Below the pieces are notes generated by a model. It did not search any database, was not told the origin of the DNA, and worked only from the letters and a program-made list of their open reading frames with translations. The translations under genes and the position numbers were made by a program. Shown here in pieces: positions 25,049 to 62,596 of a stretch of DNA of 64,000 bases; position 1 is the first letter of the stretch, and each line of letters begins with the position of its first letter. This stretch comes from Bartonella sp. A05 (GTDB lineage: Bacteria; Pseudomonadota; Alphaproteobacteria; Rhizobiales; Rhizobiaceae): positions 62,001 to 126,000 of the forward strand of contig NZ_JANHOJ010000003.1 in assembly GCF_026930145.1 (NCBI RefSeq). The letters run 5' to 3'.

Positions 25049-25972
25049 TTATTTACCAATATCAACTGTCGGCTTACCAACATTCACCGTTGGTGCAAAT
25101 GCTCCAGCTTGTAGTGAATTGCGAAAATAGAAAAAGAAATCTTCTTTTGGTGAAATCACCATCGGAGTACGCTCTAAATTCTTATAGTGTTCCATCGCCA
25201 ACCAAAAATCATAAAACGATGGATTAGCCTTCCGCGCATTCAATAAAAGGCGGATACTCTCAGCCTGACCTTCCCCGCGTGTAATTTCAGCATCACGCTT
25301 TGCAGCTGCAACAATTTCTTCATATTCACGATTAGCTTCCGCAACAATACGATCCCGCTCCTGCTGACCACGAGCACGAATATTTTCTGCAGCTGCCTCA
25401 CGTTCTGCTGCCATTTGTCGATACACATCTTCTGAAACAGCATCCGTCAGATCGGTTTTGCGAATACGCACATCAACAATGGTAATACCCAAAGAACCAG
25501 CATCTACAGAAAATTGCCGTTGTACTTCAGCCATCATTGCTCCACGTTCATCCGATAAAGCTGCTTTGAATTCTCGCTTGCCATAAACAGCACGCAAAGC
25601 ATCAATAAAACGCGGTGCAAGATTTTCGCGTGCAGCGATTTGTGGCCGACCCGATGCAATACGCTGTAAGAACAATTTAGGATCTGTAATGCGGTAAATA
25701 AAAAACGCATCAACTTCATAATAAGCACCACCACGAACCTGCACAGATTGAGTAGGCACATCATAACGCAATAACCGATTATCAATAATGACCGTCTGAT
25801 CCAAAAAAGGAACCTTAAAATAGAGACCAGGATCAGGTTCAACTTTAACGATTTGCCCAAAACGCTTAATTGCTATTTGCTGACGGGGATAAACAATAAA
25901 AATAGACATCCATAAAGCCGAAAGAACAAGCGCTATAGTACCAAAAATAAAAAAGAAACGAGATTGCTGCAT
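25049..25972 (-). CDS. hflC: HflC, FtsH-modulating membrane protein
   Basis: Forms the HflK-HflC complex around the FtsH protease and modulates membrane protein turnover. The 307-residue product has one N-terminal membrane anchor (about 8-28) and a large SPFH/prohibitin domain facing the periplasm (start VYPRQQIAIKRFGQIV). A coiled-coil part is rich in Glu/Arg/Ala (REAAAENIRARGQQERDRI). The start was chosen at 25972: GAGGA lies 7 nt upstream, and the ATG begins 1 nt after the hflK stop codon, implying coupling. Seven extra codons upstream would overlap hflK. Confidence 0.94.
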   Translation of the reverse strand: MQQSRFFFIFGTIALVLSALWMSIFIVYPRQQIAIKRFGQIVKVEPDPGLYFKVPFLDQTVIIDNRLLRYDVPTQSVQVRGGAYYEVDAFFIYRITDPKLFLQRIASGRPQIAARENLAPRFIDALRAVYGKREFKAALSDERGAMMAEVQRQFSVDAGSLGITIVDVRIRKTDLTDAVSEDVYRQMAAEREAAAENIRARGQQERDRIVAEANREYEEIVAAAKRDAEITRGEGQAESIRLLLNARKANPSFYDFWLAMEHYKNLERTPMVISPKEDFFFYFRNSLQAGAFAPTVNVGKPTVDIGK

Positions 25973-25973
25973 A

Positions 25974-27116
25974 TTAATATCCTCTAGAAACATTAGAACC
26001 CAATCGTGATGAAGAGCGTTCTGATGTTGTCATTATTTTTTCTGATGAACTACGCAACAATTCATTCAGCGGCAAATAAGGCACTGCTGGAGAATTTGTC
26101 TGATCAAAAACCAATTTATTGGGAGATGAAAGAATCCGCCCCATAGTTTCCATATAGAGACGATAACGAGAAGCCTCTGGAGAAATTGCAGCCTCACGAG
26201 CTATAGCCTGAAAACGCTCAGCACGCCCTCTTGCCTCTTCAATCATCCGCGCCTTTTCACCTTTTGCCACTTCCCGTGTGCGTGAAGCTTCACCATTCGC
26301 TAAACCAATCTTATTAAAACGCACACGATTACCCTCTTCAATCATGCGCCCACGCTCTTGCTCTGCCTGTTGAACAGAATTAAATGCAGCAGCAACCTTA
26401 GTAGGAGGAGCTGCCTCACTAATCGACACACGATTTATTTCAACACCAAGTTGATACTTATCTGCAGTTAACTGGATAATCTTTTTGACATCATTGGCCA
26501 CATCTTCTTTCTTGTCACGCAAAACATCATCAACCGGCCGCGACCCAATCACTTCGCGCATTGCACTCTCAGCAACTTGACGAACAGTTCCTTCTTGATC
26601 ATTAACATTAAACAAGAATTGACTAGGATTGGAGATCCGATAATACACAGAAAAATTAACGTTAACAATATTTTGATCACTCGAAAGCATCAAGCCTTCA
26701 CTTTGCTGAGATTGACTAGACTGACCACCAATCGCGATTGTTTTTTCCGTTAAAGGAACTTTCATATAACTTTCAATCGGCCAAAAATGAAAATGCAAAC
26801 CATCACTGACAATCCCTGCTTTAGGAACACCAAAGCGCAACTCTACCGCCTGTTCATTTTGCTGAACAATATAAATAGATTGAAAAAACCACAAAAGCAT
26901 CGCAAAGAAAAACAGTATAATAAAAATACCGCCCCCTCCAAATTGCTTAAGCTGATCCTGCCCTTTACGCAATACATCATCAATATTAGGACTATTACCA
27001 CCACCATTATTGCCACCAGAACTGAAGGGATTCTTAGGTGGTATTTTTTTATCACCATTGTATTTATTTCTATCTCCACCCCAAGGGCCATTGCCATTTT
27101 GATTTTTCCAGGGCAT
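25974..27116 (-). CDS. hflK: HflK, FtsH-modulating membrane protein
   Basis: Partner of HflC. The 380-residue product begins with a Gly/Asn/Pro-rich cytoplasmic segment (MPWKNQNGNGPWGG, continuing GGNNGGGNSP), as is typical for HflK. One membrane helix follows (about 68-88), then the SPFH domain (SIYIVQQNEQAVELRFG onward) and a helical tail. Two ATGs stand in tandem; the second (27116) has better spacing from AAGAGG. It leads the hflK-hflC-protease unit, and folA/thyA lie 110 nt upstream in the same direction. Confidence 0.94.
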   Translation of the reverse strand: MPWKNQNGNGPWGGDRNKYNGDKKIPPKNPFSSGGNNGGGNSPNIDDVLRKGQDQLKQFGGGGIFIILFFFAMLLWFFQSIYIVQQNEQAVELRFGVPKAGIVSDGLHFHFWPIESYMKVPLTEKTIAIGGQSSQSQQSEGLMLSSDQNIVNVNFSVYYRISNPSQFLFNVNDQEGTVRQVAESAMREVIGSRPVDDVLRDKKEDVANDVKKIIQLTADKYQLGVEINRVSISEAAPPTKVAAAFNSVQQAEQERGRMIEEGNRVRFNKIGLANGEASRTREVAKGEKARMIEEARGRAERFQAIAREAAISPEASRYRLYMETMGRILSSPNKLVFDQTNSPAVPYLPLNELLRSSSEKIMTTSERSSSRLGSNVSRGY

Positions 27117-29190: not shown

Positions 29191-30498
29191 ATGGAGAACG
29201 AAACAACTTCAGAACAACATGACACAAGGAAACGTGTTCTATCTATCGTAGCCAGCGCATCAGGTAATCTCGTAGAGTGGTATGACTTTTATGTATATTC
29301 TTTTACATCGATTTATTTTGCATCGCAATTTTTTCCCTCAGATGGCGATGTTGTTGCCCAACTTTTAAAAGCCGCAGGTGTCTTTTTTATTGGCTTTCTC
29401 ATGCGACCAATTGGTGGATGGCTCTTCGGACGCATTGCCGATCGTTATGGTCGTAAACTCTCAATGCTTATTTCTGTCTTTATGATGTGCAGTGGTTCAT
29501 TCCTAATTGCTATACTCCCCACTTATGAAACAATTGGAATAACAGCAGCAATTCTTCTGCTTTTACTCAGAATGCTTCAAGGTCTCTCTGTCGGTGGAGA
29601 ATATGGTACAACAGCAACTTATATGAGTGAAGTTGCTCTCAAAAACCATCGTGGTTTCTTTGGTTCTTTCCAATATACAACACTTATCGGTGGTCAACTT
29701 CTAGCTAGTCTTGTTATATTCGTTTTGGCACTTTATCTCACAGAAGATCAATTAAAAGCATGGGGCTGGCGTATTCCTTTTGTTATTGGCGGTCTTGCAG
29801 CAATTGTTGCAATTTTCTTACGTGGCTCTCTTCATGAAACAACTACAGAGGAAAGCCGTTCTGGAAAAGAGGCTGGTAGTTTCAAGGAGCTTTTACGCAA
29901 CCATCGAAAAGCTTTCTTTCTGGTTATTGGCTTTACCGCTGGAGGATCGCTTACATTCTACACTTGCACAACTTATATGCAAAAATACCTGATTACAACC
30001 ACCGGTTTTGATAAACATACAGCTACAACTGTTATGACTGCCGCACTCTTTGTTTTCATGTTACTCCAACCTGCATTTGGTGCTCTAGCTGATAAAATTG
30101 GACCGAAAATTTCTCTTCTCTTTTGGAGTGCCTTATCCATTATCTGTACAATTCCGGGACTTACAATCATTGCTGGCACTGACAATAAGTGGATTGCTCT
30201 ATCGGTCATTGTTGGAATGTTGAGCATTATGAGCTTTTATACATCTATCTCTGGTATTATAAAAGCAGCGTTGTTTCCCTCTTCAATACGCGCAATGGGC
30301 GTTGGGCTATCTTACGCTATCGCTAATGCACTATTCGGTGGTTCCGCTGAAGCGGTAGCACTTGGATTGAAGGATATTGGATATGAATCTGTTTTCTATT
30401 ATTATGTAACAGGTATGATGATTATTGCATTCATTTCGGTTCTTTTTATGCCAGATATCCGAGATGGTGGATATCTTGAAAAAGACAATATCCGTTAG
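29191..30498 (+). CDS. kgtP: Alpha-ketoglutarate:proton symporter (MHS family)
   Basis: Inner-membrane importer of 2-oxoglutarate in the metabolite:H+ symporter branch of the MFS. The 435-residue product (E. coli KgtP has 432) agrees with that family along its length: [17 protein letters not shown] (about 22-38), [48 protein letters not shown], and [20 protein letters not shown]. Twelve helices are present. The ATG at 29191 has a weak upstream purine stretch (AAAGGG further up). The gene is preceded by debris of its own duplicated tail and followed by a bidirectional terminator. Confidence 0.93.
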
Positions 30499-31508: not shown

Positions 31509-32054
31509 ATGGTTCAAGATCAAATCCGTTACGACATTCTCGTTCAGGAGGCGCTTCGTGGAGTTATCCGTAAAGTTTTATCAGAAGTTGCTAAAGCAGG
31601 CCTTCCAGGTAATCATCATTTTTTTATTACTTTTTTCACAAATGCAGCAGGAGTAAAAATTTCTACCCAGCTTAAAAGCCGCTATCCTGATCAAATGACG
31701 ATTGTCTTGCAACATCAATTTAGGGATTTAAGCGTATCAGAAACTGCTTTTGAAGTGACTCTTTCCTTTAAAGAAATTACCGAAAAACTGGTAATCCCTT
31801 TTACTTCTATTCAAGTTTTTTATGACCCCATAGCAGCATTTGAAGCAGCATTTGATCTCCCCTCTAACCTCGCTGCTAAAGAAAACAAAAATACAGAAAA
31901 TTCCCAACACACACCGATTATTTTATCGGATAAACAAAAAAAAGGGAGTATATCCTCAAAAGAAAAGAGACTGGCAATGCACAAAGAGCCATCAAACAAT
32001 GATGCTAAACAGAGTGCTGATGTTGTTTCACTGGATTCTTTCCGAAAGAAATAA
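31509..32054 (+). CDS. sspB: SspB, ClpXP adaptor for SsrA-tagged proteins (alphaproteobacterial type)
   Basis: Binds the SsrA tag and hands the substrate to ClpXP. The 181-residue product has the SspB fold in residues 1-120 (RYDILVQEALRGVIRKVL, GNHHFFITFFTNAAGVKIS, FRDLSVSETAFEVTLSF, IPFTSIQVFYDPIAAF). A polar linker (about 125-165) follows, and the end VVSLDSFRKK fits a ClpX-docking tail. The SD GAGGAAT precedes the ATG. It lies about 170 nt after the tmRNA whose tag it should recognise, and heads a run of three small genes. Confidence 0.9.
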   Translation: MVQDQIRYDILVQEALRGVIRKVLSEVAKAGLPGNHHFFITFFTNAAGVKISTQLKSRYPDQMTIVLQHQFRDLSVSETAFEVTLSFKEITEKLVIPFTSIQVFYDPIAAFEAAFDLPSNLAAKENKNTENSQHTPIILSDKQKKGSISSKEKRLAMHKEPSNNDAKQSADVVSLDSFRKK

Positions 32055-32068
32055 ATGAATTGTATCAT

Positions 32069-32275
32069 ATGACTGAACCGATTAACCTTCGCCAATTTCG
32101 AAAACAAAAAAAACGCTTAGAGAAAACCGCTCAGGCAGAGGAAAATCGTTATCGTTTTGGACGAACAAAAGCTGAAAAGCTTTTTGATCAAAAGAAAACT
32201 TTAAAAACTAAAAGTTTTCTTGATCAGAACCGTATATATAACAACCTGAGTGAGAACAAAAAAGGATGCAAATAA
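32069..32275 (+). CDS. DUF4169 family protein
   Basis: A 68-residue, very basic protein beginning MTEPINLRQFRKQKKR, the signature of DUF4169, a small alphaproteobacterial family of unknown function. The ATG at 32069 begins the conserved family start; three codons before it (TTG) are unlikely to be used. It lies 14 nt after sspB and overlaps the next gene by 10 nt, so the three genes probably form one operon. Confidence 0.75.
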   Translation: MTEPINLRQFRKQKKRLEKTAQAEENRYRFGRTKAEKLFDQKKTLKTKSFLDQNRIYNNLSENKKGCK

Positions 32276-32517
32276 ACGATCCTATTGATTGGTCAGAAGC
32301 GATTCCACAAAAAATATCTATCCGAATTGATGGGCATCTTACAAGTGTCTCGTTAGAACAACCGTTTCTAGACATCCTCAAGAGCATAGCGCACAAAAAA
32401 GGGCAGTCTTTAGCTTCCATTATCACTGATATTGACAATAAAAGACCGCAAAAAGTGAAACTCTCAGCCTCATTACGCATTTTTGCACTTTATAGCGTTC
32501 TCAACCATAAACTTTGA
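32266..32517 (+). CDS. Ribbon-helix-helix domain protein (RHH_4 type)
   Basis: An 83-residue product whose core (ISIRIDGHLTSVSLEQPFLDILKSIAHKKG, continuing QSLASIITDID; about 17-57) matches the RHH_4 group of putative DNA-binding proteins in Rhizobiales. The arrangement of a beta strand followed by two helices suits a dimeric ribbon-helix-helix. The target is unknown, and no toxin partner is adjacent. It overlaps the DUF4169 gene by 10 nt and is followed by about 115 nt before the helicase gene. Confidence 0.75.
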   Translation: MQINDPIDWSEAIPQKISIRIDGHLTSVSLEQPFLDILKSIAHKKGQSLASIITDIDNKRPQKVKLSASLRIFALYSVLNHKL

Positions 32518-32633
32518 AATCTACTTTTTCCTCTCTTGTAAACTTTGTGTTCTCATTGAACTGATTGTGATTTTTCTAAGAAAATAATTTTTAGACCTAG
32601 CGTTTGTATCCAAAAAAGACTAAAAAAGGTACA

Positions 32634-43417: not shown

Positions 43418-44296
43418 CTAATTATTACTAAAAGCATTCGAGATCCAAGAAGACTTATGCTCTTGTGGCAATATACTACTCTTCTGCAGCAAATTATAAG
43501 CAAGTTTATACCATTGGCTTGCTGGATAATTGCGTTTCAAGATAGATACTGCTGTCTGTGCTTCTCTAATTAAGCCTAAAGCAAGATTAACCTCCGTCAA
43601 GCGGAAAAGAGCTTCTTCAACTTGATTTGTATCCGAATATTCTTCAATCACCTTACGGAATCTCTTGCTTGCAGCTAGATACTGCCGGCCTCTTTCGTAG
43701 TAACGGCCAATCTGCATTTCCTTACCCGCTAACTGCTCACGAGCAAAATGTATTTTAGCCTTAGCGTCCTTGACATACTTAGACCCTGGATAGCGTTCTA
43801 CCAAAAGCTGCATAGCAGCAATAGCACGCTTAGTGTCTTTTTGGTCGCGCGTGACATCAGGAATTTGTTTGAAAGAGGAAAGCCCAATAATGTAATAAGC
43901 GTAATCAGAATCATCCGAAGTTGGATAAAGAGTGATATAGCGCTGCGCCATATTAATCGCATCATCATATTTGGCTAACTGATGATTTACAGAAGCACCT
44001 TTTATCAAAGCCTTCCGCCCCCACTCAGTATAAGCATATGTCTTTTCAATAGCAGAAAACTTCTTCACTGCCTCTTCAAAGCGCCCTGCATTCAGGTTAG
44101 CAAGTGCTTGCTTGTACAAAATATCAGCTGACTCTATTGCTAAAACATGATCCCCTGGATTAAGAGTATTTTCATTTTTATTTAAACAACCTGCCAACAA
44201 GAAGATTGTCCCCCAAGAAAGTCCAATCAATAATTTGCATACAATTTTACATTGTTTAAGCACCATATTTCCAATACACACGTTAGACTGCCTCAT
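43418..44296 (-). CDS. bamD: Outer-membrane protein assembly factor BamD (ComL) lipoprotein
   Basis: Essential lipoprotein of the BAM complex that inserts outer-membrane barrels such as the Hbp-type porin of this window. The 292-residue product has a lipobox LLAGC (Cys about 38) followed by tetratricopeptide-like repeats (ADILYKQALANLNAGRFEEA, EWGRKALIKGASVNHQLAKYDDAI, SDYAYYIIGLSSF). The ATG at 44296 has GGAGGT 10 nt upstream. An internal ATG at 44266 would give a more usual 27-residue signal peptide. The region upstream holds the lpxC pseudogene. Confidence 0.92.
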   Translation of the reverse strand: MRQSNVCIGNMVLKQCKIVCKLLIGLSWGTIFLLAGCLNKNENTLNPGDHVLAIESADILYKQALANLNAGRFEEAVKKFSAIEKTYAYTEWGRKALIKGASVNHQLAKYDDAINMAQRYITLYPTSDDSDYAYYIIGLSSFKQIPDVTRDQKDTKRAIAAMQLLVERYPGSKYVKDAKAKIHFAREQLAGKEMQIGRYYERGRQYLAASKRFRKVIEEYSDTNQVEEALFRLTEVNLALGLIREAQTAVSILKRNYPASQWYKLAYNLLQKSSILPQEHKSSWISNAFSNN

Positions 44297-44484
44297 AGTT
44301 TCGCTGACCTCCAGAGAATGTAAACTTGTAGCAAAAATTATTTATTAAAAAACTTTATATCATATCACTCTAACACTCACTAACCAATTTATAGGTTTTA
44401 AGTTAATCATCCCCTTAAAAATCAGATAGAATAAAGCAATCTTTTTTCAAATTTCTTTACTCTATCTAAAAATATCTCTTTTTA

Positions 44485-45332
44485 TAACATGATCCGCCTA
44501 CCAAAACTGCTTTGTGAATTAAGTCTATACTAGATTATATTCGCTGTAATACGAACAAAATAATCCAATAAAACCTGCCACATAAAGCAGATGTCACAGG
44601 CTGCATCAAGGATGTCGTGTTAGACAAATCATTTTCAAAAAGGAACCATCTGGATTTATAATTTGATTATCAAAATCAACAACGAGAAAATTTTCTAAAA
44701 AAACTCCTAACTCCTTTTAAAATTCCGTAAATTGTCCGCATCTCACATAGAATCAAACATGCACATCATCTCAAAAGCCTTGTGGGATAAAATTAAAACT
44801 CTGTTGCCGTTTATCAAATAGTAGGCGAAGAAAAATTAACCTTAACCCAAACGAATGTTCATCAAACGGCAAAATGCTGCAACACTACGCATCGTTTCAA
44901 CATGTACCAGCTTTTTTATAATAAAATAAATACACAACACAGCCTGTTGCACGATATCAGCTTGCTCAAAGCCTTTACAATATTGCCATGAAGAAAACCA
45001 TCTAAAATAGGTAATCCCTATTTGATATTTCAATGAGACAACTATCTAAATCATAAGCGGCAATTGGCAAGCATCAACTGCTCAATTGCCCCAATCTCTA
45101 TATTCCTCACACCTAAACACTGTTGATAACTCAAATCTTTTCCGTTTGCGATGCACGCACTCACAAATTGTTCTTTGCCATCCATTCCACAACATTTAAG
45201 AACAATATTATATCCAATATTGGCCGGACAAACTTTTACTAAAGATGGAACGCCACTATGAACTCAATGTCCTTTAAAAATATCACCGCATTTTCAAAAG
45301 TCGACTGATATTTTTGCACCGCTCGCTCTCAT
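44485..45332 (-). pseudogene. lpxC: Decayed lpxC (UDP-3-O-acyl-N-acetylglucosamine deacetylase)
   Basis: No frame here is open for long, yet pieces of LpxC appear in the correct order on the minus strand in shifting frames. QKYQSTFENAV (about 45285-45318) is followed by HSGVPSLVKVCPANIGYNIV (about 45200-45260) and NIEIGAIEQLML. Next come FIIKKLVHVE (about 44896-44930), NQIINPDG (44646-44668), HDILDAACDI (44590-44619, the HKxxDxxGD zinc motif), AGFIGLFCSYY and LIHKAVL. Several stops and frameshifts break it, and the zinc-ligand His of EHLMAA reads Gln. The location between ftsZ and bamD is where rhizobia keep lpxC. It cannot make an enzyme. Confidence 0.88.
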
Positions 45333-45525: not shown

Positions 45526-47280
45526 TTAATGTGCTTGACGTCGCAAAAACGCTGGTATTTCCAACTGATCTTCTTCACTTGTAAAAGTATGCTGATCTTG
45601 TGGAACATGCGGCTGCAACTCAGCAGGATGGCGCGTAGCATAAACAGAAGGATCTTGAGAAAGCCCCTGATCGTTTTGATGAGCAATATAAGCTTCCCTA
45701 TGTTCAGACGGCTTCACAGCAGGCTCTAACCGAGCTTCTGGTTCAGCTTCCTCACGATAGATCAAACTCTGCTTCAAACGCTGCCAAAGATTACGAGGCC
45801 CCTGATCAACAACAGAAGGAACTGTACCTCGACCATGAGCAACAGAAGGAAAATCCTTCAATTCAGGCATACGCATCGGCGTTGAACGAAGCGGTATCTG
45901 TACTCTTTTTTCCTTATTTTCTACCACATCAGGCAGTTCATCGAGAACATGTGCTGTAGCCTCCATACTCACTGCTGCGGCTACAGGCTTCTGGGTAACG
46001 CGACCAACCTGCATACGCTGTGTATTTGATACCTGCCCATGAGCAATATTTTGTCCATAAGAGGGAGTATTTACTTCTCGCGTAGCAACTGCATCTGCAG
46101 ACTGCGCAAAAATTTTACTCTTCGGACGAAATTGCTCTTCCACCGATTGATTTATGTCTACTTCAAGCGCTTCCATTGTCTCTACCATTGTTTCAGGACG
46201 CAATGGAGATGACTGAATATGAGGAACCGTTTGTGCTATTCCCGGATCGTTTTTACGAATTGAAGATACAGGTTTTTGAAGTTTAGGATTAGCAGGCTGC
46301 ATGACATCTCTAGCCTCACGATCAATCCCTGTTGCAACCACCGATACACGAATAACACCCTCAAGTGACTCATCATCAATGGCACCAAAAATAACATTGG
46401 CATCAGCATCAACTTCTTCGCGAATACGATTAGCAGCTGCATCCACCTCAAACAAAGTCATATCACGACCCCCAGTAATGGAAATCAAAAGACCACGAGC
46501 ACCACGCATAGAAGCATCATCTAACAACGGATTTGCAATAGCTGCTTCAGCAGCAGCTAAAGCACGCCCTTCACCAGATGCCTCACCGGTTCCCATCATA
46601 GCACGACCCATTTCATGCATAACAGAGCGAACATCAGCAAAATCAAGATTAATCAAGCCTTCTTTAATCATCAAATCCGTAATAGAAGCAACACCAGAGT
46701 AAAGCACCTGATCAGCCATAGCAAAAGCATCAGCAAATGTTGTTTTTTCATTCGCAATACGGAAAAGATTCTGATTGGGAATAACAATCAATGTATCAAC
46801 AGATTTTTGTAATTCTTCTATACCAGCCTCGGCCGTCTTCATACGACGCGCACCTTCAAATTGAAATGGCTTTGTCACAACACCAACGGTCAAAATACCC
46901 TTGTCACGCGCCGCACGTGCAACAACAGGCGCGGCTCCTGTTCCAGTGCCTCCCCCCATACCTGCTGTAATAAAAACCATATGAGAATCCCCAAGATGAT
47001 CAATAATCTCATGGATACATTCTTCGGCGGCTGCTTTTCCAACTTCCGGCAAAGCACCAGCACCCAAACCTTCTGTCACTGCGGCACCAAGCTGGATCAC
47101 ACGTTGAGCTTTTGACATAGACAAAGCCTGTGCATCCGTATTAGCAACAACGAAGTCGACTCCCTGAAGAGCAGCATTAATCATATTATTTACGGCATTC
47201 CCGCCACCCCCACCAACACCAAAAACGGTAATGCGTGGCTTCAATTCCGCGATATCTGGCCGGTGCAGATTAATCGTCAT
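45526..47280 (-). CDS. ftsZ: Cell division protein FtsZ
   Basis: Tubulin-like GTPase that forms the division ring. The 584-residue chain has the GTPase core in residues 1-320: [14 protein letters not shown], the T-loop [10 protein letters not shown] (about 110) and [12 protein letters not shown] long, poorly conserved linker (about 330-560) and a C-terminal tail [15 protein letters not shown] follow; the tail binds FtsA. The extended length is typical of rhizobial FtsZ1. The start at 47280 follows AAGGA; eight upstream codons are possible but less likely. It is the last intact gene of the dcw cluster. Confidence 0.97.
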
Positions 47281-47343
47281 TTTCTTTTCCTTCTCATAAG
47301 ACATCGCAAGCCAAAGCGATGAAAATTAATACCCAAAGACTTA

Positions 47344-60880: not shown

Positions 60881-62596
60881 CTATTCATACTTATTAGTTG
60901 GCTCATATTCTTTCTTAAAATCTGATTTTATTCCAAGAAAACCAGCTGAACGACGAATAATATTAGCAAGTATTGGCCCAGCATTCATCGCTGCTGTTGC
61001 CGAACGTTTTCCCTCTTCTGGCTGAGGTTCATCAATAATCGTTAAAGCAACATAAGAGGGATCATCAATAGGAAAAGCAGCAAGAAAGCTATTAAAATTT
61101 TTTGTTTTAGAATATCTTCCATTTTCCACTTTTTCCGCAGTTCCTGTCTTACCACCAACACGATAACCCTCTACCTTTGCATTACGTCCAGAACCAATAT
61201 CGCTATTCAACTTGTAGAGATAACGCATATCTTGACTCGTTTTTGATTTTAGAACCTGTTTAGCATGCTTCAAAGCCTGTTCTTGAGTGCGGATTAAAAA
61301 TGTGGGTTCGATCAACCAACCACCATTCATTAAAGCAGCTGTTGCTACTGCGGTTTGCAACGGCGTTGTTGCCATACCATGCCCAAAAGAAATCGTCATA
61401 GAATGTATATCCCGCCAATGACGTGGCACAATAGGGTGTGCAACCTCGGGCAATTCGGTTGTCATACGATCCAGTAAACCAATCCGTTTCAAAAAATCAC
61501 GATGTCCATCAACACCTATTGCCAATGCTTCTTTGGCAGAACCAATGTTAGAAGAATAAATAAAAACCTCCTGTAAAGTTAAAGGACGATTTTTTCCGCG
61601 GAAATCACGAATAATGCGGTCATGTGCTCTAATTGGTTTTGAAGCATCAATGATGCTGTCTAAATGAAAAATACCTGAATTAAGTGCCATCGCCGTAGTG
61701 AAACTTTTGATTATCGATCCCATTTCAAAAGCTCCAGCAGTCATACGATTTAATCGATCATTCTTAAGAGCATCAGAAGGTTTCCCAGGATCAAAATCGG
61801 GAACAGATGCCATAGCTAAAACTTCACCAGTATGGATATTTAAAATAACAGCTCCTGCTGCGATTGCTTTATAGCGCTTCATCGCCTTCATAAGTTCGTC
61901 ATGTACAATTGTCTGGATACGTATATCAATCGAAAGTTGAACCGCTTTCAAGGACGCTTCAGTTACAAGACCAGCAGCACGAAGAACACTTAAACCAGCA
62001 TCATCGATATATTTTTCCATGCCAGCAATGCCTTGATTATCAATATTAACCATGCCAAGAATATGCGAAGCTACACGTCCACTTGGATAAAAACGACGAA
62101 CTTCCGTGCGAAAACCAATACCCGGTATACCAAGCGCCATGATTTGCATCTTTTGCGTTGGCGTTAACCCACGCTGAATCCAAGAAAAACCAGTTTTTCT
62201 TTTTAATCGCTGGTAAGTTTCCTGCCAATTGAGTGTTGGCAAAACTGTCGAGATTAATTCAATTGTTTCATCCACATCAACAATACGACGCGGTTCAGCA
62301 AAAAGCGAGTAAGTGGTGATATCCGTCGCCAATAGACGCCCATTGCGATCAATAATATCAGGCCGTGCAGCTGACTGTAACGCTGCAGGCCCTTTTGCTT
62401 CTTCGATTTCACCACCTTCAAAACCGTAAGAAATAAGGCACCACCCCATAACCCCGTAAAGAACAAGAAAACACAATAAAGAAAAAATCAATCGTAAACG
62501 GCTAGAATACGTGCAAGAAATAGAAAAATCTTTAGGATTCAATTGACCATTTAAGCGCTGTTTCTTCTGCAAAAACAGGGTTGATAATGCCATCAT
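60881..62596 (-). CDS. ftsI: Septal penicillin-binding protein FtsI (PBP3)
   Basis: Transpeptidase of the divisome that works with FtsW. The 571-residue chain has one N-terminal membrane helix (about 34-54), a PBP dimerisation domain (SAARPDIIDRNGRLLATDI) and the transpeptidase domain. The catalytic SxxK is in EMGSIIKSF (about 293), SxN in IYSSNIGSAK (about 350) and KTG in RVGGKTGTAEKVENG (about 480). It overlaps ftsL by 4 nt. Confidence 0.96.
   Translation of the reverse strand: MMALSTLFLQKKQRLNGQLNPKDFSISCTYSSRLRLIFSLLCFLVLYGVMGWCLISYGFEGGEIEEAKGPAALQSAARPDIIDRNGRLLATDITTYSLFAEPRRIVDVDETIELISTVLPTLNWQETYQRLKRKTGFSWIQRGLTPTQKMQIMALGIPGIGFRTEVRRFYPSGRVASHILGMVNIDNQGIAGMEKYIDDAGLSVLRAAGLVTEASLKAVQLSIDIRIQTIVHDELMKAMKRYKAIAAGAVILNIHTGEVLAMASVPDFDPGKPSDALKNDRLNRMTAGAFEMGSIIKSFTTAMALNSGIFHLDSIIDASKPIRAHDRIIRDFRGKNRPLTLQEVFIYSSNIGSAKEALAIGVDGHRDFLKRIGLLDRMTTELPEVAHPIVPRHWRDIHSMTISFGHGMATTPLQTAVATAALMNGGWLIEPTFLIRTQEQALKHAKQVLKSKTSQDMRYLYKLNSDIGSGRNAKVEGYRVGGKTGTAEKVENGRYSKTKNFNSFLAAFPIDDPSYVALTIIDEPQPEEGKRSATAAMNAGPILANIIRRSAGFLGIKSDFKKEYEPTNKYE

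Follow-up and report, generated by a model that had tools for sequence, protein, structure and literature searches.

Decay of lpxC between ftsZ and bamD in Bartonella sp. A05 and the probable loss of lipopolysaccharide from its lineage

In the 64,000-nucleotide stretch of Bartonella sp. A05 DNA analyzed here (positions 62,001 to 126,000 of NZ_JANHOJ010000003.1, contig C13 in our numbering; hereafter the window), ftsZ and bamD lie intact on the minus strand on either side of a 1229-base gap that holds no open reading frame (ORF) of at least 90 amino acids. The gap is occupied by the remains of lpxC, the gene for UDP-3-O-acyl-N-acetylglucosamine deacetylase of lipid A synthesis. The A05 genome comprises 1,559,146 bases in 19 contigs and is 99.98% complete. 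The A05 genes are compared with those of a reference genome, G047, which we take to be Bartonella sp. F02 and whose LpxC is 99.65% identical to that of F02; F02 is the sister of the window lineage in a tree of FtsZ, RecN and BamD built by a quick method from 39 rows, with a Shimodaira–Hasegawa-like approximate likelihood ratio test support of 100. The F02 LpxC, LpxI, LpxK, WaaA, LptD, UppS and the LptF/LptG pair were checked against Pfam, LpxB and LpxD were located by the genus-wide searches described below, and LpxA is named by place and similarity only. The flanking genes that we take to be ftsZ, recN, ftsQ, fabZ, pyrH, frr, cdsA, pdxA, ksgA, mutL and cysQ are named from sequence and gene order. 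The features at the locus, in window coordinates, are as follows.

45526..47304, minus strand: ftsZ, intact upstream flank, an ORF of 592 amino acids with 81% identity along the length of the F02 ORF
44478..45319, minus strand: decayed lpxC, the whole remnant as placed by DNA alignment to F02 lpxC
45066..45278, minus strand: piece matching LpxC residues 14–84 (tblastn, 43% identity), with one internal stop
44878..44994, minus strand: piece matching LpxC residues 108–146 in another frame (tblastn, 56% identity)
44531..44881, minus strand: piece matching LpxC residues 146–267 in a third frame (tblastn, 34% identity), with five stops
44478..44513, minus strand: piece matching LpxC residues 273–284 (tblastn, 9 of 12 residues identical)
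43418..44296, minus strand: bamD, intact downstream flank, an ORF of 292 amino acids that is 69% identical to the F02 ORF, named from its relatives

The initial annotation of this DNA, made from the letters alone, held that lpxC had decayed at its ancestral place between ftsZ and bamD and called for a frame-tolerant comparison with LpxC; the comparison bears it out. When F02 LpxC is compared with the window by tblastn, the four pieces listed above fall collinearly on the minus strand in three different frames with a joint E value of 1e-27, and together they cover residues 14–284 of the 287 in the F02 protein. At the DNA level, the entire interval between ftsZ and bamD aligns with its F02 counterpart over 1186 columns at 67.6% identity (E = 1.9e-122), and within it 843 of the 864 bases of F02 lpxC are aligned at 68.1% identity, whereas none of 20 simple shuffles exceeds 47% and their mean is 44%. 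The alignment contains 16 gap runs, 15 of them frame-breaking in that their length is not a multiple of three. The upper end of the remnant, at 45319, is inferred from the stretch that was matched to the start of the F02 protein.

The Pfam profile for LpxC (PF03331) yields no full-length match over its cut-off in one open frame at this site. Instead it scores the remnant at 20.2 bits against a cut-off of 27, covering positions 10–99 of 268 with 5 internal stops, and this match overlaps the piece at 45066..45278. The zinc-binding motif of LpxC, HKxxDxxGD, had been counted among the aligned remains, and on this point the earlier reading does not hold: where F02 has HKMLDAIGD, the remnant, read by eye, has HDILDAACDI, and the motif is lost. 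Among the 80 loci that we fetched with BamD, 78 carry ftsZ, LpxC and bamD in this order on one strand, with no fewer than 250 residues of LpxC aligned, and we therefore regard the interval as the ancestral place of lpxC. The remaining two loci (L107 and L124) contain LpxC and BamD with no FtsZ match, and both end early on that side. Given collinear similarity at the ancestral place together with frame breaks, 44478–45319 is confirmed as an lpxC pseudogene.

The pattern of substitution in the remnant differs from that of intact genes compared between the same two genomes. Relative to F02, the mismatch at codon positions 1, 2 and 3 of the lpxC remnant is 0.326, 0.252 and 0.380, respectively, as compared with 0.142, 0.083 and 0.325 for ftsZ, 0.195, 0.147 and 0.430 for bamD, 0.245, 0.132 and 0.358 for ftsQ, 0.135, 0.068 and 0.381 for recN and 0.169, 0.105 and 0.382 for bamA. 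The recN and bamA alignments have no gaps at all, and none of seven intact genes (these five together with fabZ and pyrH) has a frame-breaking gap. Four pairs of intact lpxC genes, F02 against four other species, likewise show no gaps, with mismatches of 0.19–0.21, 0.12–0.13 and 0.37–0.39. Change at the third position of the remnant is thus ordinary and that at the first and second is raised, as expected once selection on the protein ends.

The decay within the window is selective and singles out lpxC. In the span that is colinear with the window, F02 has 48 ORFs of at least 100 amino acids, of which 46 match the window in one frame with 92% or more of their length covered (three of these being copies that share one window gene), lpxC alone is in pieces, and gpsA alone has no counterpart. 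On this comparison we reject general genome decay as the cause for the window. Three other F02 ORFs had been flagged as carrying stops and were not counted as broken, since by the ORF coordinates the stops fall in overhangs, either right at the margin of an intact window ORF or past it. These intact ORFs have the following window coordinates.

25049–25993: intact ORF with overhang stops
43418–44296: intact ORF with overhang stops (bamD)
60881–62596: intact ORF with overhang stops

Decay extends to three other loci of the lipopolysaccharide (LPS) pathway, so that four decayed loci lie on four contigs (C13, C14, C12 and C1), each with intact colinear flanks. On C14 (locus L147), an intact bamA of 798 amino acids is followed by an lpxD remnant, an intact fabZ and the remains of lpxA-lpxI-lpxB. 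The lpxD remnant retains 70.4% DNA identity to F02, with 15 gap runs of which 13 are not multiples of three, and its codon-position mismatch (0.303, 0.231 and 0.352) resembles that of lpxC. Beyond fabZ lie 577 bases in which the 5′ end of lpxA and the 3′ end of lpxB can be recognized, with approximately 2 kb missing from between them. On C12 (L158), the lptF-lptG-lptD block that precedes surA is reduced to 1479 bases from about 4.7 kb in F02; both ends of lptF and the 3′ end of lptD are recognizable in it, nothing matches lptG, and intact surA, pdxA and ksgA ORFs follow. The two permease genes are told apart, as lptF and lptG, by gene order. At the waaA-lpxK place on C1 (L159), between a small ORF beside a cysQ-like gene and mutL, only 627 bases are left, and their sole similarity is to the final portion of lpxK and to the lpxK–mutL spacer. 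From the reading of these loci, lpxA, lpxI, lpxK, lptF and lptG are not intact at their ancestral places.

We searched 71 Bartonella genomes, A05 included, for the key enzymes. LpxC is found over the cut-off in 70 of the 71, with matches that span profile positions 1–267 or nearly so and contain no stops; A05 is the exception, the remnant being its sole PF03331 match. LpxB, LpxD and LptD are each present in 70 genomes and have no match in the A05 genome, and the Kdo transferase WaaA, present in 69, also has none there. (The second genome without a WaaA match, G016, has LpxC, LpxB, LpxD and LptD.) Across a sample of 397 genomes of the order, 357 have an LpxC match and 356 of these exceed the cut-off, the one below being A05; the 24 other genomes of the same family that are listed in this sample all have a match. 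Some genomes in the sample have two or three. The initial annotation had offered two outcomes, either that a second functional lpxC existed elsewhere or that the classical route to lipid A had been lost. The former is rejected, as the profile search finds no second LpxC in the A05 genome, and the latter is supported by the missing LpxB, LpxD, LptD and WaaA and by the broken loci.

The machinery for assembling outer-membrane proteins is retained. BamA, BamD and SurA are intact in A05, a β-barrel outer-membrane protein is kept at 1158–1976 of the window, and two neighboring ORFs with pertactin-type domains, one of which has an autotransporter β-domain, lie at L158 2–5423, some 3 kb away from what is left of lptF. 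LPS synthesis and export thus appear to be lost in a cell that keeps outer-membrane protein assembly. LPS is the defining surface lipid of Gram-negative bacteria and a main signal by which hosts sense them. We consider it highly probable, with a rough probability of 0.92, that the A05 lineage has lost LPS. Under the sequence of events that we propose, LPS would have become dispensable, the pathway would have been freed from selection, and its loci would then have decayed in parallel. The cell would keep an outer membrane built by BamA, BamD and SurA, and the outer leaflet of this membrane would have to consist of phospholipid, lipoprotein and possibly host lipid in place of lipid A. More tentatively, and at less than even odds, we propose an outer membrane entirely free of LPS, its outer leaflet rebuilt from another lipid, perhaps one derived from the host.

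Other explanations for these observations differ considerably in plausibility. That lpxC is in fact intact and its frames look broken only through mistakes in sequencing or assembly, a kind of explanation that the initial annotation had named among its possible refutations, might be entertained for a draft assembly whose read data are unknown, and yet it is hardly credible in view of the 15 frame-breaking gaps in lpxC against none in the seven intact genes, the relaxation across codon positions, and decay over four loci on four contigs that includes kilobase-scale deletions at the three outside the window. It is also very improbable that a transferred or duplicated lpxC resides elsewhere and that LPS is still made. 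Although a 19-contig assembly might conceivably lack some small piece of the genome, A05 has no other LpxC match, and because LpxB, LpxD, WaaA and LptD are without a match as well, replacing one enzyme alone would leave the pathway incomplete.

The intact BamA, BamD, SurA, β-barrel and autotransporter-type proteins imply that something must fill the outer leaflet, which lends some weight to a non-homologous LPS-like lipid made by other enzymes. The cell would then keep a glycolipid outer leaflet of another kind, such as one of sphingolipid or ornithine-type lipid. We regard this as unlikely, though less so than the two preceding alternatives, as it is opposed by the lack of an LptD match and by the disappearance of lptF and lptG, which encode the LPS export permease, from their place.

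Several considerations weigh against the loss of LPS from the lineage. The verdict on LpxA, LpxI, LpxK, LptF and LptG comes from the ancestral places of the genes and not from a genome-wide search, and Kdo synthesis, MsbA, LptA/B/C and the lipid A acyltransferases fall outside the set that we looked at. The lineage is represented here by one genome: among the best 120 of 4343 BamD matches, the closest other full-length BamD is 72% identical to that of A05, and a few rows reach 73–74% identity with 88–89% of the length covered. The absence of LpxC is not unique to A05 either, as 40 of the 397 sampled genomes of the order, from several families, have no LpxC match; the listing that gives the family leaves out 20 of these 40. 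The absence of lipid A is, in addition, deduced from genes only. Finally, another envelope gene, uppS, is likewise a remnant in A05 and is missing from most of the genus, and not all decay in A05 is therefore specific to LPS.

Natural loss of LPS is already known, and the A05 case is notable for its genus, recency and extent. Anaplasmataceae have naturally lost lipid A genes, as have some other groups (PMC3087551). As in A05, it is the lipid A genes that are missing from Ehrlichia, Anaplasma, Neorickettsia and Wolbachia. However, the loss in Anaplasmataceae involves several genera of one obligate intracellular family, whereas in Bartonella it is confined to one lineage beside 70 other genomes with LpxC, and the A05 remnants are still readable in place. 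Laboratory and clinical mutants of Acinetobacter, Neisseria and Moraxella that are deficient in LpxC or LptD survive without lipid A. These mutants carry recent single mutations, whereas in A05 most of the pathway and the exporter have decayed.

Within the genus, B. henselae and B. quintana are described as having an atypical deep-rough LPS (PMC3361297); both make LPS, in contrast to A05, which is without a complete lipid A pathway. The Bartonellaceae symbionts of ants are described in PMC6044324 as having complete peptidoglycan and LPS gene sets. Our search of the open-access literature found no report of an LPS-free Bartonella, though a mention inside the body of a paper could be missed.

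The loss would have taken place inside the genus, once the A05 lineage had parted from a sister species whose genes are intact. Because the remnants persist, the joint disappearance of lpx, lpt and waaA genes is open to direct reading and to study of its order and timing. If LPS has indeed been lost, A05 offers a natural record of a diderm bacterium shedding LPS and its exporter while β-barrel assembly stays. The prediction that follows is that tests for lipid A, for instance a Limulus assay, would give no signal with this species.

The remains of uppS (undecaprenyl diphosphate synthase, PF01255) lie between frr and cdsA at 2226–2786 of L147 and are 67.7% identical to F02 uppS. No uppS match is found in 56 of the 71 Bartonella genomes, and the gene is present in 14 of 14 control genomes. 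The same gap aligns at 58% in G007 and 54% in G011, where the shuffle maxima are 48% and 47%, respectively. In G014 (C1:1136209–1136870), the uppS match consists of two overlapping pieces, one of which has three stops, possibly a fresh break. The murein synthesis ORFs of the window look intact despite the uppS remnant. A literature search on uppS or undecaprenyl in Bartonella found no report.

A few smaller differences were also noted. The gpsA gene (glycerol-3-phosphate dehydrogenase, identified by Pfam in F02), whose product feeds phospholipid synthesis, lies in F02 between the same neighbors and has no counterpart at 32054–32604 of the window, where only the flanks align. For hpf/raiA (PF02482), there is no match in either the A05 or the F02 genome, and 11 of the 14 control genomes have hpf. 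One window gene, at 29191–30498, corresponds to three neighboring paralogous ORFs in F02 (C14 46892–51503 of that genome), and so the sister species differ in the number of copies.
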